20,086 bases of DNA from a virus. Below are positions 3,490 through 12,997 of the stretch, in pieces. Numbering within the stretch: the first letter of the stretch is position 1; every line of letters starts with the position of its first letter. The DNA lies in IMG/VR virus record IMGVR_UViG_3300029309_000442, positions 1 through 20,086 of that record; one strand, written 5' to 3'. A model generated the notes under the pieces. It was not told the DNA's origin. It made no database searches and saw nothing but the letters and a program-made list of their open reading frames with translations. A program made the position numbers and the translations under genes.

Positions 3490-3669
3490 ATGAATTTATT
3501 AGAAAAAGAAATAAAAGAACTAATTAAAGAAAGATATTATGAGTACCTTGAGGAAGGTTATGAATCTTTTGAAGCTATGGAATTAGCCAAAAGAGATATA
3601 CATGAAACAAAAGAAGTTGAGATAGATGCTTATAATAAAATATATGATAGTTCTTTTGATATTGACTAA
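3490..3669 (+). CDS. hypothetical acidic helical protein, 59 aa
   Basis: Start at 3490 (MNLLEKEIKEL), after AAGAGAGAATAAG; a longer frame from 3409 would run across the membrane microprotein gene. The product is helical and acidic with tyrosines (ERYYEYLEEGYESFEAMEL). No family recognised. It is the last of the tiny-gene run; its stop codon overlaps the promoter that precedes the primase-helicase gene. Confidence 0.6.
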   Translation: MNLLEKEIKELIKERYYEYLEEGYESFEAMELAKRDIHETKEVEIDAYNKIYDSSFDID

Positions 3670-3690
3670 CAATATATAATAGTATATAAT
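3663..3690 (+). promoter_or_regulatory. sigma70-like promoter for the replication genes, TTGACT-16-TATAAT
   Basis: TTGACT at 3663-3668 and TATAAT at 3685-3690, spacing 16. A second TATAAT at 3675-3680 is too close to the -35 to be its partner. Predicted start near 3697, giving a leader of about 16 bases that holds the GGGGAT ribosome-binding site (3703-3708) of the primase-helicase gene. Matches the other TTGACT promoters in this window. Confidence 0.65.
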
Positions 3691-5356: not shown

Positions 5357-5676
5357 TGAAGTGTTGGCATTGTGATACAGAGTTAATATGGGGAGGAGAC
5401 CATGACATTGCCCATGAAGATGAGGACTATTGTATGGAAACAAATTTATCCTGTCCTAACTGTGGTGCTTTTCATATGGTATACTTACCAAAAAATGAAA
5501 CAGATGATAAGCAAATTTGGATAGAAGGTTATAAAGAATGGTTAGATAAAAACGAAGAAGAGCCTGAAATGTGGGAACACTATTGCCATGAAGAACATAG
5601 TATGATGGCAGTAGGTAAAGGTGAACCTTGTAATTGGTGTGGGAAGGAGGAAGAAGATTGTGAAAGTTGTTCTTGA
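5356..5676 (+). CDS. conserved phage zinc-ribbon protein, 106 aa
   Basis: Starts at 5356, sharing one base with the helicase stop (TAATG). Cysteine pairs: CWHC (residues 3-6) and CPNC (about 33-36) make an N-terminal zinc ribbon around WGGDHD, an arrangement I recognise from small proteins next to replication genes in marine phages. The C-terminus has a second cysteine group (CNWC, then CESC). Function unknown. The C-terminal codons also carry the AAGGAGG ribosome-binding site of the polymerase gene. Confidence 0.8.
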   Translation: MKCWHCDTELIWGGDHDIAHEDEDYCMETNLSCPNCGAFHMVYLPKNETDDKQIWIEGYKEWLDKNEEEPEMWEHYCHEEHSMMAVGKGEPCNWCGKEEEDCESCS

Positions 5677-7294
5677 TATAGAAACAGACCAGATAAATGC
5701 TAAAGTAATTAATTGTATTGTTGCTAAAAATATTGAAACAAATGTGTCTACAGTATTTGACCCAAGTAATATGCATGTATTTAAAGACTGGTCTAAAGAT
5801 ATTAAACAATATATTATGCATAATGGTTTATCTTTTGATGCTCCTGTATTAAATAGATTGTTAGGTACAAATATTAAACCTTCACAAGTATTAGATACAT
5901 TAATATTATCACAGTTATTTAATCCATTACGTGATGGTGGTCATGGACTAAGAGCATGGGGAGATAGATTTAATTTTCCTAAAGGAGATATAAAATCCTT
6001 TGGTCAATATACAGAAGAATTAAAAAGATATTGTATGCAAGATGTAAATATAACACATAAGTTATATGAACATTTAAAGAAAGAAGGCAAAGGTTTTTCT
6101 AGGTCTTCTATTGATTTAGAACATCAAGTAAGAGTTATAATTGACCAACAAGAAAGAAATGGTTTTGCATTAGATGTTCGTAAAGCTATGTCTTTATATA
6201 ATACATTGAGAGATGAAGCAAGTGAGTTAGAAAAGTGGGGTAAGATACACTTTGACCCTACAAGAAAAGACTTAAAAACAAAAACAAAATACATACCTTT
6301 TAATATAGGTTCACGACAACAGATAGCTGATAGATTACAAGAACTAGGTTGGAAACCTAAGAAGCATACTGATAAAGGTAATGTAATTGTTAATGAAGAA
6401 GTTTTGAATAGCATAGACTTAGAAGAAGCAAAGAAGTTTGCTAGGTATTTGTTATTACAAAAAAGAATTGCACAGATTAAATCTTGGATTGAATCGTGTA
6501 ATGATAAGGATGGTAGAGTACATGGTAGAGTTATGACATTACGTACTGTAACAGGTCGTATGGCACATAACAGTCCTAACATGGCTCAGATTCCTGCTGT
6601 TCGTTCTCCATATGGTAAAGAGTGTAGGGAATGTTGGACTGTTGACAATCCCTATACTCACTCCATTGTTGGTACTGATGCTAGTGGTTTAGAACTTAGA
6701 TGTTTAGCACATCTTATGGATGATAAAAACTTTACTGAAGAAGTATTAAATGGAGACATACATACAGCTAATATGAAGATGGCAGGTTTAACAGATAGAG
6801 ACCAAGCTAAAACATTTATATATGCTTTTATGTATGGTGCAGGTGCATCTAAGATAGGTAAGATAGTAGGTGCAGGTGCTAAAGAAGGACAGATATTAAT
6901 AGATAGGTTTCTTTCTAACATGCCTGCTCTTAAAAGAGTTAGGGATAGTGTAACTGAAACAGCTAAGAGAGGTAAGATAAAAGGTATTGATGGTAGACTA
7001 TTACATGTACGTTCTCCACATAGTGCATTAAATACATTACTGCAAGGAGCAGGTGCTGTTGTATGTAAGTTGTGGTTAATAAACATGAATAAAAGAATAG
7101 TACAAACAGGTGTTGATGCTAAGTTAGTTGCATCTATACATGATGAATACCAATATGAAGTTGCAAAGAAAGATGTAAAAAGATTTGGTAGTATTACCAA
7201 AGATGCTATGAAAGATACAGAGCATCAGTTGAAGATGAAGTGTCCATTAGATAGTGAATGGAAGGAAGGCACGACATGGGCAGAGACTCATTAG
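5660..7294 (+). CDS. family A DNA polymerase with 3'-5' exonuclease
   Basis: The replicative polymerase. Exonuclease motifs: VVLDIETD (D6, E8), HNGLSFDAP (D60) and YCMQD (Y124, D128). Polymerase motif A GTDASGLELR (D340), motif B R380-x3-K384-x3-Y388-x3-YG, motif C ASIHDEYQYE (HDE about 494-496). The residue equivalent to E. coli Phe762 is Tyr388, the state found in T7. At 544 aa it is shorter than T7 gp5 (704 aa); the thumb and the region between exonuclease and palm are compact. Start: GTG at 5660 with AAGGAGG at 5644-5650 puts the exonuclease strand at residue 3; the upstream ATG at 5621 lies inside the zinc-ribbon gene and adds a non-conserved extension. Confidence 0.95.
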   Translation: MKVVLDIETDQINAKVINCIVAKNIETNVSTVFDPSNMHVFKDWSKDIKQYIMHNGLSFDAPVLNRLLGTNIKPSQVLDTLILSQLFNPLRDGGHGLRAWGDRFNFPKGDIKSFGQYTEELKRYCMQDVNITHKLYEHLKKEGKGFSRSSIDLEHQVRVIIDQQERNGFALDVRKAMSLYNTLRDEASELEKWGKIHFDPTRKDLKTKTKYIPFNIGSRQQIADRLQELGWKPKKHTDKGNVIVNEEVLNSIDLEEAKKFARYLLLQKRIAQIKSWIESCNDKDGRVHGRVMTLRTVTGRMAHNSPNMAQIPAVRSPYGKECRECWTVDNPYTHSIVGTDASGLELRCLAHLMDDKNFTEEVLNGDIHTANMKMAGLTDRDQAKTFIYAFMYGAGASKIGKIVGAGAKEGQILIDRFLSNMPALKRVRDSVTETAKRGKIKGIDGRLLHVRSPHSALNTLLQGAGAVVCKLWLINMNKRIVQTGVDAKLVASIHDEYQYEVAKKDVKRFGSITKDAMKDTEHQLKMKCPLDSEWKEGTTWAETH

Positions 7295-7725
7295 TACAAA
7301 AAGAATTGTTTAATGATTGTGAATCTATTGATACAAGCAAACCATTAAAGACATGTGTTAAATGTAATAAGACTAAACCATTAGATGCCTTTCAAAGTTA
7401 TGGTTATAATCAAAAGACTACAGGATTACCTTCTACTGAAAGAGTTTGTAAATCTTGTGCTAATGAGAGGAATAGACAAACAAGACAATTAAGATTAGTT
7501 ACTCCTCCTCCACCTAAAGATTATAGATGTCCTATTTGTTTGACAAGTGCTGAAGAAAACAAGCAAAGAAATAATCAATGGTGTTTAGACCATGACCATG
7601 ACACAGGAAAAGCTAGAGGTTGGTTATGTAATAAATGTAATTCAGCTTTAGGTTGGTTTGATGATAACATAGATTTTTTAAAAAGAGCAGTAAACTATTT
7701 GGAGAAATATAATGGTAACAGTTAA
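7276..7725 (+). CDS. endonuclease VII (Holliday-junction/branch resolvase)
   Basis: Cleaves branched DNA, resolving replication and recombination intermediates before packaging. The C-terminal half is the phage endonuclease VII fold: CPIC (85-88), WCLDHDHDTG (about 102-111, His-Asp cluster), GWLCNKCNSALGWFDD (116-130) and a closing helix. An N-terminal extension carries another zinc-ribbon-like set, CVKC (27-30) and CKSC (58-61), giving eight cysteines for two zinc sites. Length 149 aa is near the T4 enzyme (157). Start 7276 has GAAGGAAGG at 7260-7268; an in-frame ATG at 7258 is possible. Overlaps the polymerase end by 19 bases and the next gene by 14. Confidence 0.92.
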   Translation: MGRDSLVQKELFNDCESIDTSKPLKTCVKCNKTKPLDAFQSYGYNQKTTGLPSTERVCKSCANERNRQTRQLRLVTPPPPKDYRCPICLTSAEENKQRNNQWCLDHDHDTGKARGWLCNKCNSALGWFDDNIDFLKRAVNYLEKYNGNS

Positions 7726-8782
7726 AGAGTTTAAGGGAAGACATGACCACAAAGATTATATTAAACGTGGTATAAGAACAGAGAATTTATTTATAGATGA
7801 AGCAATTAAATTAGGTTATGAAGTTAAGGTTGCTTCTGATTCTCAGAACATGTCTGACCATATTGATTTAATTTTAATGAAAGGGGATGAAACATTTACA
7901 GTAGATATAAAAGCAAGAAGAACAGGAACAGATAAGTCAAAAGGTTTTGATGACTTATGGACTGTAGTGGAGTTCAAAAATACCATGGGTAATGCAGGTT
8001 GGTTATATGGCAAATGTGATTACTTTGTTTTTGAACAAGAAGATGAATATGTTTTTGCTAACTCTGAAGAGTTAAGAGAGTTGTGTCATGAAGTTGTAGA
8101 CTTAACTGATAAGGTTAAGTATTTTCGTGAAGCAAACTATAAAGTTTGGGGTAGGAGTTACCAAAACAAAAAAGATTTAATATCTAGAATAGAAATGTCA
8201 AAAGTATTACAATTAAAAAGTACATTTAATTGGAAAAAAAGTCTTGACTTTTCTACTAGAATATGTGATAATTCTATTTTAACAACAATAAAGGATAATA
8301 ATATGAGTGTAATAAAAGGTAATGCCCATTGGGCAAGTATAACAAGTCCAAATACAACATTTGATTCAGATGGTGTGTGGACTATTGATGTTGGTAATCT
8401 TGACGAGAAGAATAAAAAGATTGCTCAAGCTGATGGAATCTCTGTGAAGAATAAGAATGATGACAGAGGTGACTTTGTTACTATCAAAAGAAAAGTAAGA
8501 AGAAAAGATGGTAACTTAAATAAGGCTCCTGAAGTTGTAGATGCTCAGAAGAGAGCAATGATTGGTACATTAATTGGTAATGGTTCTGAAGTTAATGTAT
8601 TATACTCTACATATGAGTGGGAGTTTGGTGGTAAGTCTGGTGTATCTGCTGATTTAAGAGCAATACAAGTAACAAACTTAGTACCATACAATACTGATGC
8701 AGATGCTGAAGAAGCATTTGGTGTAGTTGAAGATGGTTTTGTATCTAAAGAAGCTGACGAAGAAGTTTCTTTTGCTAGTTAA
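7712..8782 (+). CDS. PD-(D/E)XK-type nuclease read in frame into gp2.5-like SSB
   Basis: One uninterrupted 356-codon frame holds two proteins that are normally separate. Residues 1 to about 174 look like a restriction-endonuclease-like nuclease: acidic residue near 30, SDHIDLIL (D52) and FTVDIKARR (D65-x-K67), then LWTVVEFKN and GWLYGKCDYFVFE. Residues 198-356 are an ssDNA-binding protein (see the entry at 8303). Between them, residues 175-197 (KKSLDFSTRICDNSIL and on) look like translated intergenic DNA: they cover a promoter and a ribosome-binding site. A run of seven As (8234-8240) lies at the junction; a -1 shift there would give WKKKS then TGA at 8245-8247, a 178-aa nuclease. Either a true fusion, a frameshift-controlled pair, or a one-base sequence error. 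Confidence 0.75.
   Translation: MVTVKEFKGRHDHKDYIKRGIRTENLFIDEAIKLGYEVKVASDSQNMSDHIDLILMKGDETFTVDIKARRTGTDKSKGFDDLWTVVEFKNTMGNAGWLYGKCDYFVFEQEDEYVFANSEELRELCHEVVDLTDKVKYFREANYKVWGRSYQNKKDLISRIEMSKVLQLKSTFNWKKSLDFSTRICDNSILTTIKDNNMSVIKGNAHWASITSPNTTFDSDGVWTIDVGNLDEKNKKIAQADGISVKNKNDDRGDFVTIKRKVRRKDGNLNKAPEVVDAQKRAMIGTLIGNGSEVNVLYSTYEWEFGGKSGVSADLRAIQVTNLVPYNTDADAEEAFGVVEDGFVSKEADEEVSFAS
8234..8247 (+). other. A7 run with -1 frame stop: possible slippage site
   Basis: Seven consecutive As (8234-8240) follow the TGG codon at 8231-8233 of the nuclease frame. In the zero frame codons run AAA AAA AGT CTT GAC onward into SSB. One base of -1 slip, or one extra A added by RNA polymerase, gives AAG TCT TGA, stopping at 8245-8247 within the -35 box of the SSB promoter. 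Poly-A runs of this length are known to allow ribosomal or transcriptional slippage. A missing A in the assembly would look the same. Confidence 0.4.
8244..8272 (+). promoter_or_regulatory. sigma70-like promoter inside the nuclease-SSB frame, TTGACT-17-GATAAT
   Basis: TTGACT at 8244-8249 and GATAAT at 8267-8272, spacing 17. The nine bases TTGACTTTT are identical to those in the hsp20 promoter at 12969. Predicted start near 8279, followed by AAGGA at 8291-8295 and the SSB ATG at 8303. This supports separate high-level expression of SSB. Confidence 0.65.
8303..8782 (+). CDS. ssDNA-binding protein (T7 gp2.5-like), independently startable
   Basis: Nested in frame at the 3' end of the 7712 gene. 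ATG at 8303 has AAGGA at 8291-8295 (spacing 7) and its own promoter at 8244. The 159-aa product begins MSVIKGNAHWASITSPNTTF, continues with an OB-fold-like strand pattern (GVWTIDVGNLDEKN; GDFVTIKRKVRR; EVNVLYSTYEWEF; LRAIQVTNLVPY) and ends in an acidic tail, EADEEVSFAS. This is the design of phage gp2.5 proteins, which coat ssDNA and recruit polymerase and helicase through the acidic tail. In T7 the tail ends exactly in Phe; here Ala-Ser follow it. An SSB of this size is normally encoded alone, so the short form is probably the main product. Confidence 0.82.
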   Translation: MSVIKGNAHWASITSPNTTFDSDGVWTIDVGNLDEKNKKIAQADGISVKNKNDDRGDFVTIKRKVRRKDGNLNKAPEVVDAQKRAMIGTLIGNGSEVNVLYSTYEWEFGGKSGVSADLRAIQVTNLVPYNTDADAEEAFGVVEDGFVSKEADEEVSFAS

Positions 8783-12968: not shown

Positions 12969-12997
12969 TTGACTTTTAAAATTAGGTGGTGTATAAT
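12969..12997 (+). promoter_or_regulatory. sigma70-like promoter of hsp20, TTGACT-17-TATAAT
   Basis: TTGACT at 12969-12974 and perfect TATAAT at 12992-12997 with the ideal 17-base spacer. It lies in one of the longest non-coding gaps of the window (12962-13057). Predicted start near 13004, at the foot of the hairpin at 13006. The first nine bases, TTGACTTTT, match the SSB promoter. Confidence 0.75.

Follow-up and report, generated by a model that had tools for sequence, protein, structure and literature searches.

Results

A predicted nuclease and SSB in one reading frame

The locus studied here raises the question of why a phage nuclease should run, in a single open frame, through what resembles the promoter of the following gene and into a single-stranded DNA-binding protein (SSB), and which proteins such a frame would give. 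The 356-residue ORF (7712..8782, + strand) is found in a 20,086-base record of an uncultured virus in which a phage replication module is present, and this whole stretch is referred to below as the window. Its upstream neighbour is a family A DNA polymerase (5621..7294, + strand), whose nearest relatives are those of the Pelagibacter phages HTVC115P, HTVC104P and HTVC103P (46-47% identity); this makes a marine host, SAR11-like or similar, plausible. The ORF, the A7 tract, TTGACT, GATAAT, the ribosome-binding site (RBS), the ATG and the -1-frame TGA were all re-located at the positions given in a preliminary description of this DNA. The structure model of the fusion contains two folded domains separated by a disordered stretch (residues 178-196), with a mean pLDDT of 71.9 and a pTM of 0.49, values too low for the relative placement of the domains to be interpreted.

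The nuclease domain (about residues 1-177; 7712..8242, + strand) was modelled with a pLDDT of 85.6 and a pTM of 0.85 as an alpha-beta PD-(D/E)XK core with the pattern E...D-X(n)-(D/E)-X-K, and its catalytic set (E24, D52, D65 and K67) is invariant in 37 homologues. The best fold match was I-Ssp6803I (2ost; Z 9.5, Foldseek E 6.6e-4, 13% identity), which ties with Hjc of A. fulgidus (Z 9.4). T7 endonuclease I did not appear among the fold matches listed, which is not evidence of absence. Curated models matched weakly (Pfam NERD, 0.062; NCBIfam PRK14674, 0.01, and YraN, 0.12), while PHROG 5018, which has no function assigned, gave 0.0012. The models thus support an I-Ssp6803I/Hjc-like PD-(D/E)XK nuclease at the N-terminus. 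No relative of the nuclease turned up in a scan of genome contigs, no match among cultured phages at E 0.01 (query L107), and no PADLOC match.

With regard to the C-terminal part, the segment starting at its own ATG (8303..8782, + strand; 159 aa) was modelled as a gp2.5-type OB fold with a disordered acidic tail (residues 330-356, pLDDT <50, ending ...EADEEVSFAS). It superimposes on T7 gp2.5 (1je5) with Z 12.9 and rmsd 3.2 over 134 residues, and the profile match has an E value of 6.6e-8. As judged by the model, this part is a T7 gp2.5-type SSB and a predicted ssDNA binder.

The linker carries the putative promoter and RBS of the SSB gene

The translated linker (residues 178-197; 8243..8302, + strand) is predicted to be disordered (pLDDT <50 at 178-196). 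Its DNA holds a -35 element, TTGACT (8244..8249, + strand), which is conserved among relatives, and an extended -10 element, TGTGATAAT (8264..8272, + strand), made up of TGn (8264-8266) and GATAAT (8267-8272) at a 17-nt spacer from the -35 box. A Shine-Dalgarno sequence, AAAGGA (8290..8295, + strand), lies 7 nt before the start ATG at 8303.

Within the window alone, promoter matches with at most one mismatch numbered 9 against 4.3 expected (4 of 100 shuffles reached 9), and a second count in this AT-rich DNA gave 50 against 55.5 expected, not clearly above chance. It is conservation across relatives that identifies a putative sigma-70-type SSB promoter in the linker. The pattern TTGAC-N15-TGn-nATAAT (C allowed for the first T of ATA, the extended -10 thus being TG-n-nA[TC]AAT) is found in 31/31 distinct fused linkers, and at the same 17-nt spacer in 16/19 linkers from genomes in which nuclease and SSB are separate genes (split), the other 3/19 having an 18-nt spacer. 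Across relatives the letters of the -35, TG and -10 elements are near invariant and the spacer is variable. The Shine-Dalgarno sequence is present in 31/31 fused and 18/18 split linkers, and every fused linker keeps promoter, RBS and SSB ATG together. Similar promoter-RBS units, some with an 18-nt spacer, also precede SSB genes that lack the PD-(D/E)XK nuclease. The gene in front of such a unit is the polymerase itself, a 143-residue ORF or an HNH endonuclease, and HTVC115P has a unit of this kind too. Judged by this distribution, these signals, the ATG included, are part of the SSB gene, and the earlier view of the linker as translated promoter and RBS DNA is borne out. A search for a phage RNA polymerase (PF00940) gave no match, nor did its controls, and was uninformative.

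Exact matches to TTGAC-N19-ATAAT also occur at 3662-3690 and 12969-12997 of the window, in gaps that immediately precede the genes for primase-helicase and Hsp20, and may mark further starts of transcription units.

Fused and split junctions among relatives

When the results of three marine viral contig scans were classified by profile, 70 distinct junctions were found to have both genes, of which 45 form one open frame and 25 are split. Since the fused junctions stem from about 40 metagenomes, a missing base in one assembly is ruled out, and the one-frame nuclease-SSB ORF of the window is real. The preliminary description had placed a nuclease and a gp2.5-like SSB in one frame, and models, profiles and this recurrence all back it. 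In a fourth scan, beyond the 70, L266 was fused, and L252 and L254 were split with an identical linker.

The 31 distinct fused linkers measure 69, 72 or 75 nt, all multiples of three, and contain no stop in frame 0, with an average of 5.3 stops in frame 2. The 18 distinct split linkers (62-77 nt) occur in all three phases and each contains a stop. One member of the fused clade, L017, has an in-frame TAG in its linker and ambiguous bases elsewhere in its genome. Because of this TAG and the 25 split junctions, the fusion appears from the sequences to be dispensable. Readthrough in the L100 group, which has two in-frame TAGs, was considered and is unlikely, the same-type linker of L252 being one base shorter.

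The A7 tract

Seven As (8234..8240, + strand) lie just 5' of the -35 box, and a -1-frame TGA follows five bases downstream (8245-8247). The preliminary description had proposed this tract as a slip site from which the nuclease alone could be made, its null being that an A is missing from the assembly or that a single base was recently deleted. Aligning homologous loci, as it had suggested, speaks against both. A homopolymer at the join does invite suspicion of a sequencing or assembly error, but at the 45 distinct fused junctions its place is taken by A6T, A7, A8 or interrupted runs (AAGAAAA, AATAAAC), all in frame, and down to about 60% nuclease identity these junctions differ by in-frame indels only; an artefact as the source of the fusion is a negligible prospect. 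Programmed -1 slippage is very improbable as well. The tract and the nearby TGA would suit it, but the run is not conserved (12 of the 31 distinct fused linkers lack A7 or longer), the codons AAA AAA AGT put the heptamer out of the X_XXY_YYZ phase for a tandem slip, and the RNA around it shows no notable structure (z -0.46); programmed -1 frameshifting is recognised by a conserved in-phase slippery heptamer with a stimulator, and the locus has no such element. The TGA is accounted for by the -35 box itself (consensus TTGACA, TTGACT in the window). Moreover, unrelated upstream genes, namely the 143-aa phrog_13596 ORF and the HNH endonuclease, carry KKSVD at the same place. This is the translation of A tract plus -35 box, and its occurrence in unrelated ORFs means that the run is associated with the SSB promoter rather than the nuclease.

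Selection on the open frame

After masking of promoter and RBS positions, linker substitutions were mapped on the nuclease tree and stop gains were counted. This tree was used because SSB alleles recombine with split genomes, the SSB tree showing alleles that move between fused and split genomes; the parsimony counts thus assume the nuclease tree despite that recombination. Frame 0 gained one stop (in L017) against 8.5 expected (P 0.0019), a depletion driven mostly by the 72-nt clade, the 69-nt group of the window having few events and no depletion alone. The other frames had 10 against 8.9 (frame 1) and 27 against 9.2 (frame 2). The fused or split state requires three changes on the nuclease tree, gain versus loss not being polarised. 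The junction of L109 is still in frame, and its SSB shares just 48% identity with that of the window. In fused genomes dN/dS was 0.29 for the nuclease, 0.17 for the SSB and 0.51 for the linker, whose amino-acid conservation is confounded by that of the promoter; for the nuclease in split genomes it was 0.21.

A variable slot between polymerase and SSB

The nuclease gene sits between the polymerase stop (ACACATTAG) and the -35 box. Among relatives this slot is seen both empty and occupied. Where no gene intervenes, about 65-137 nt separate the polymerase stop from the SSB ATG, and in one such type stop and -35 box are only a few bases apart. Occupants other than the nuclease are the 143-aa phrog_13596 ORF (L175:2522-2953), the HNH endonuclease (L185:123-743) and a 177-aa ORF with no family match (L040:2117-2650).

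An Endonuclease VII-like gene lies between polymerase and nuclease (window 7258-7725) and is missing from many close relatives. It begins with MEGRxxMGxxxLV, residues that open the nuclease where this gene is absent, and it seems to have taken over the nuclease start, the nuclease then starting at MVTVKEF. It occupies the same place in two split genomes.

Two further genes, absent from the window, follow the Cas4-like exonuclease in relatives: a SegE-like GIY-YIG gene (L025:4976-5407) and an HNH gene (L036:4999-5565), which are homing-type inserts in the replication module. In the nuclease-less genomes L168 and L183, an inverted-repeat hairpin that looks like a terminator stands just after the polymerase stop, before the SSB promoter.

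A second nuclease-SSB fusion

In the split-type genome behind L135, a second SSB paralogue carries a C-terminal T5orf172/GIY-YIG domain (L268:70-912, - strand; Pfam E 1.4e-11), and this fusion is kept in relatives (L269-L278) at 62-70% identity. The join, AAAAAGGA[GA]AAAGAAATG, is again a translated RBS plus ATG, as in the PD-(D/E)XK-SSB fusion, whereas the nuclease fold is another and the order opposite. On sequence grounds this is a second, independent nuclease fusion in related phages.

Discussion

The sequences firmly establish the architecture, the conservation of frame and promoter, and the domain types. The reading that we consider probable is that of a two-product gene. Transcripts from the upstream replication genes, translated from 7712, would give the nuclease-linker-SSB fusion, the nuclease frame having no stop at the -35 box and running on into the SSB. 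SSB alone would come from transcripts that begin at the internal sigma-70-type promoter (8244-8272), and also from either transcript where ribosomes start at the internal RBS and ATG. Of the three products once proposed for this frame, fusion and free SSB are thus the ones retained, as most likely both made in view of the conserved signals, and the nuclease released by slippage is given up. Free SSB in excess, together with a minority of fusion molecules, could form mixed assemblies, through which a PD-(D/E)XK nuclease of the branch or junction type would reach the ssDNA of forks and recombination intermediates. Tethering the nuclease to ssDNA would most likely be the purpose of the fusion.

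Two other explanations accept the fusion as real. The nuclease may have lost its stop codon neutrally, the added tail doing no harm and the phage needing just free SSB and the activity of the nuclease. Split forms are indeed common (25/70), three state changes suffice on the nuclease tree, and selection on the linker is relaxed; nevertheless, the depletion of stops is specific to frame 0, fused linkers show triplet indels only, and the fusion persists across deep divergence and exchange of SSB alleles, which makes this account unlikely. Somewhat less doubtful, while still the weaker candidate, is a selfish element: a homing-type nuclease inserted between polymerase stop and SSB promoter, for which the fusion means a tie to an essential gene rather than a service to replication. 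This would agree with I-Ssp6803I, a PD-(D/E)XK homing endonuclease, as the best fold match, with a slot that is empty or filled by other ORFs, including an HNH endonuclease, and with the patchy presence nearby of Endonuclease VII, HNH and GIY-YIG genes. On the other hand, archaeal Hjc resolvases score equally well, and neither an intron nor an intein is present. It should be underlined that a homing-type origin is compatible with the two-product reading, and both may hold.

In a more general and tentative form, for which we would claim somewhat less than even chances, the two-product reading can be extended: these marine phages would time and again join nucleases to their SSB, retaining the start signals of whichever gene lies downstream, and so set a mixture of free and nuclease-bearing SSB that aims cutting at ssDNA. 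Selection would act on the conserved promoter at two levels at once, DNA sequence and open linker, and the two fusions, each with a translated RBS, would be convergent. If so, this is a conserved case of a promoter and RBS doubling as the linker of a protein, and internal initiation could set the dose of what would be a natural tether between nuclease and SSB. Gene callers will give one 356-residue ORF and overlook the separate SSB. The link between SSB and junction nuclease is testable. A literature search, with most subscription journals outside its reach, found no paper describing a nuclease-SSB fusion.

The window nuclease shares the PD-(D/E)XK fold and the active site E...D...DxK with the archaeal Hjc Holliday junction resolvases (2wcw, 2eo0), but is a longer, phage protein with a sequence match at E 0.12, and its activity is only predicted. 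To I-Ssp6803I the likeness is one of fold, and the window nuclease sits in no intron. The SSB has the OB fold, the place in the replication module and the disordered acidic tail of T7 gp2.5 (1je5), with about 19% of the aligned residues identical; many of its relatives here differ in adding an in-frame N-terminal nuclease. In T7, endonuclease I (gene 3), a PD-(D/E)XK resolvase, adjoins the gene 2.5 SSB; the two are thus neighbours there too, but separate, unfused and in the opposite order.

Nested in-frame products made by internal initiation are found in T7 gene 4 (4A/4B). SpaO and SpaO-short likewise come from an in-frame nested gene with internal initiation (PMC12132427). Both systems yield a full-length protein plus its separate C-terminal part, as proposed here; in the present locus, by comparison, a sigma-70-type promoter, itself conserved, accompanies the internal start, and the C-terminal product would be an SSB.
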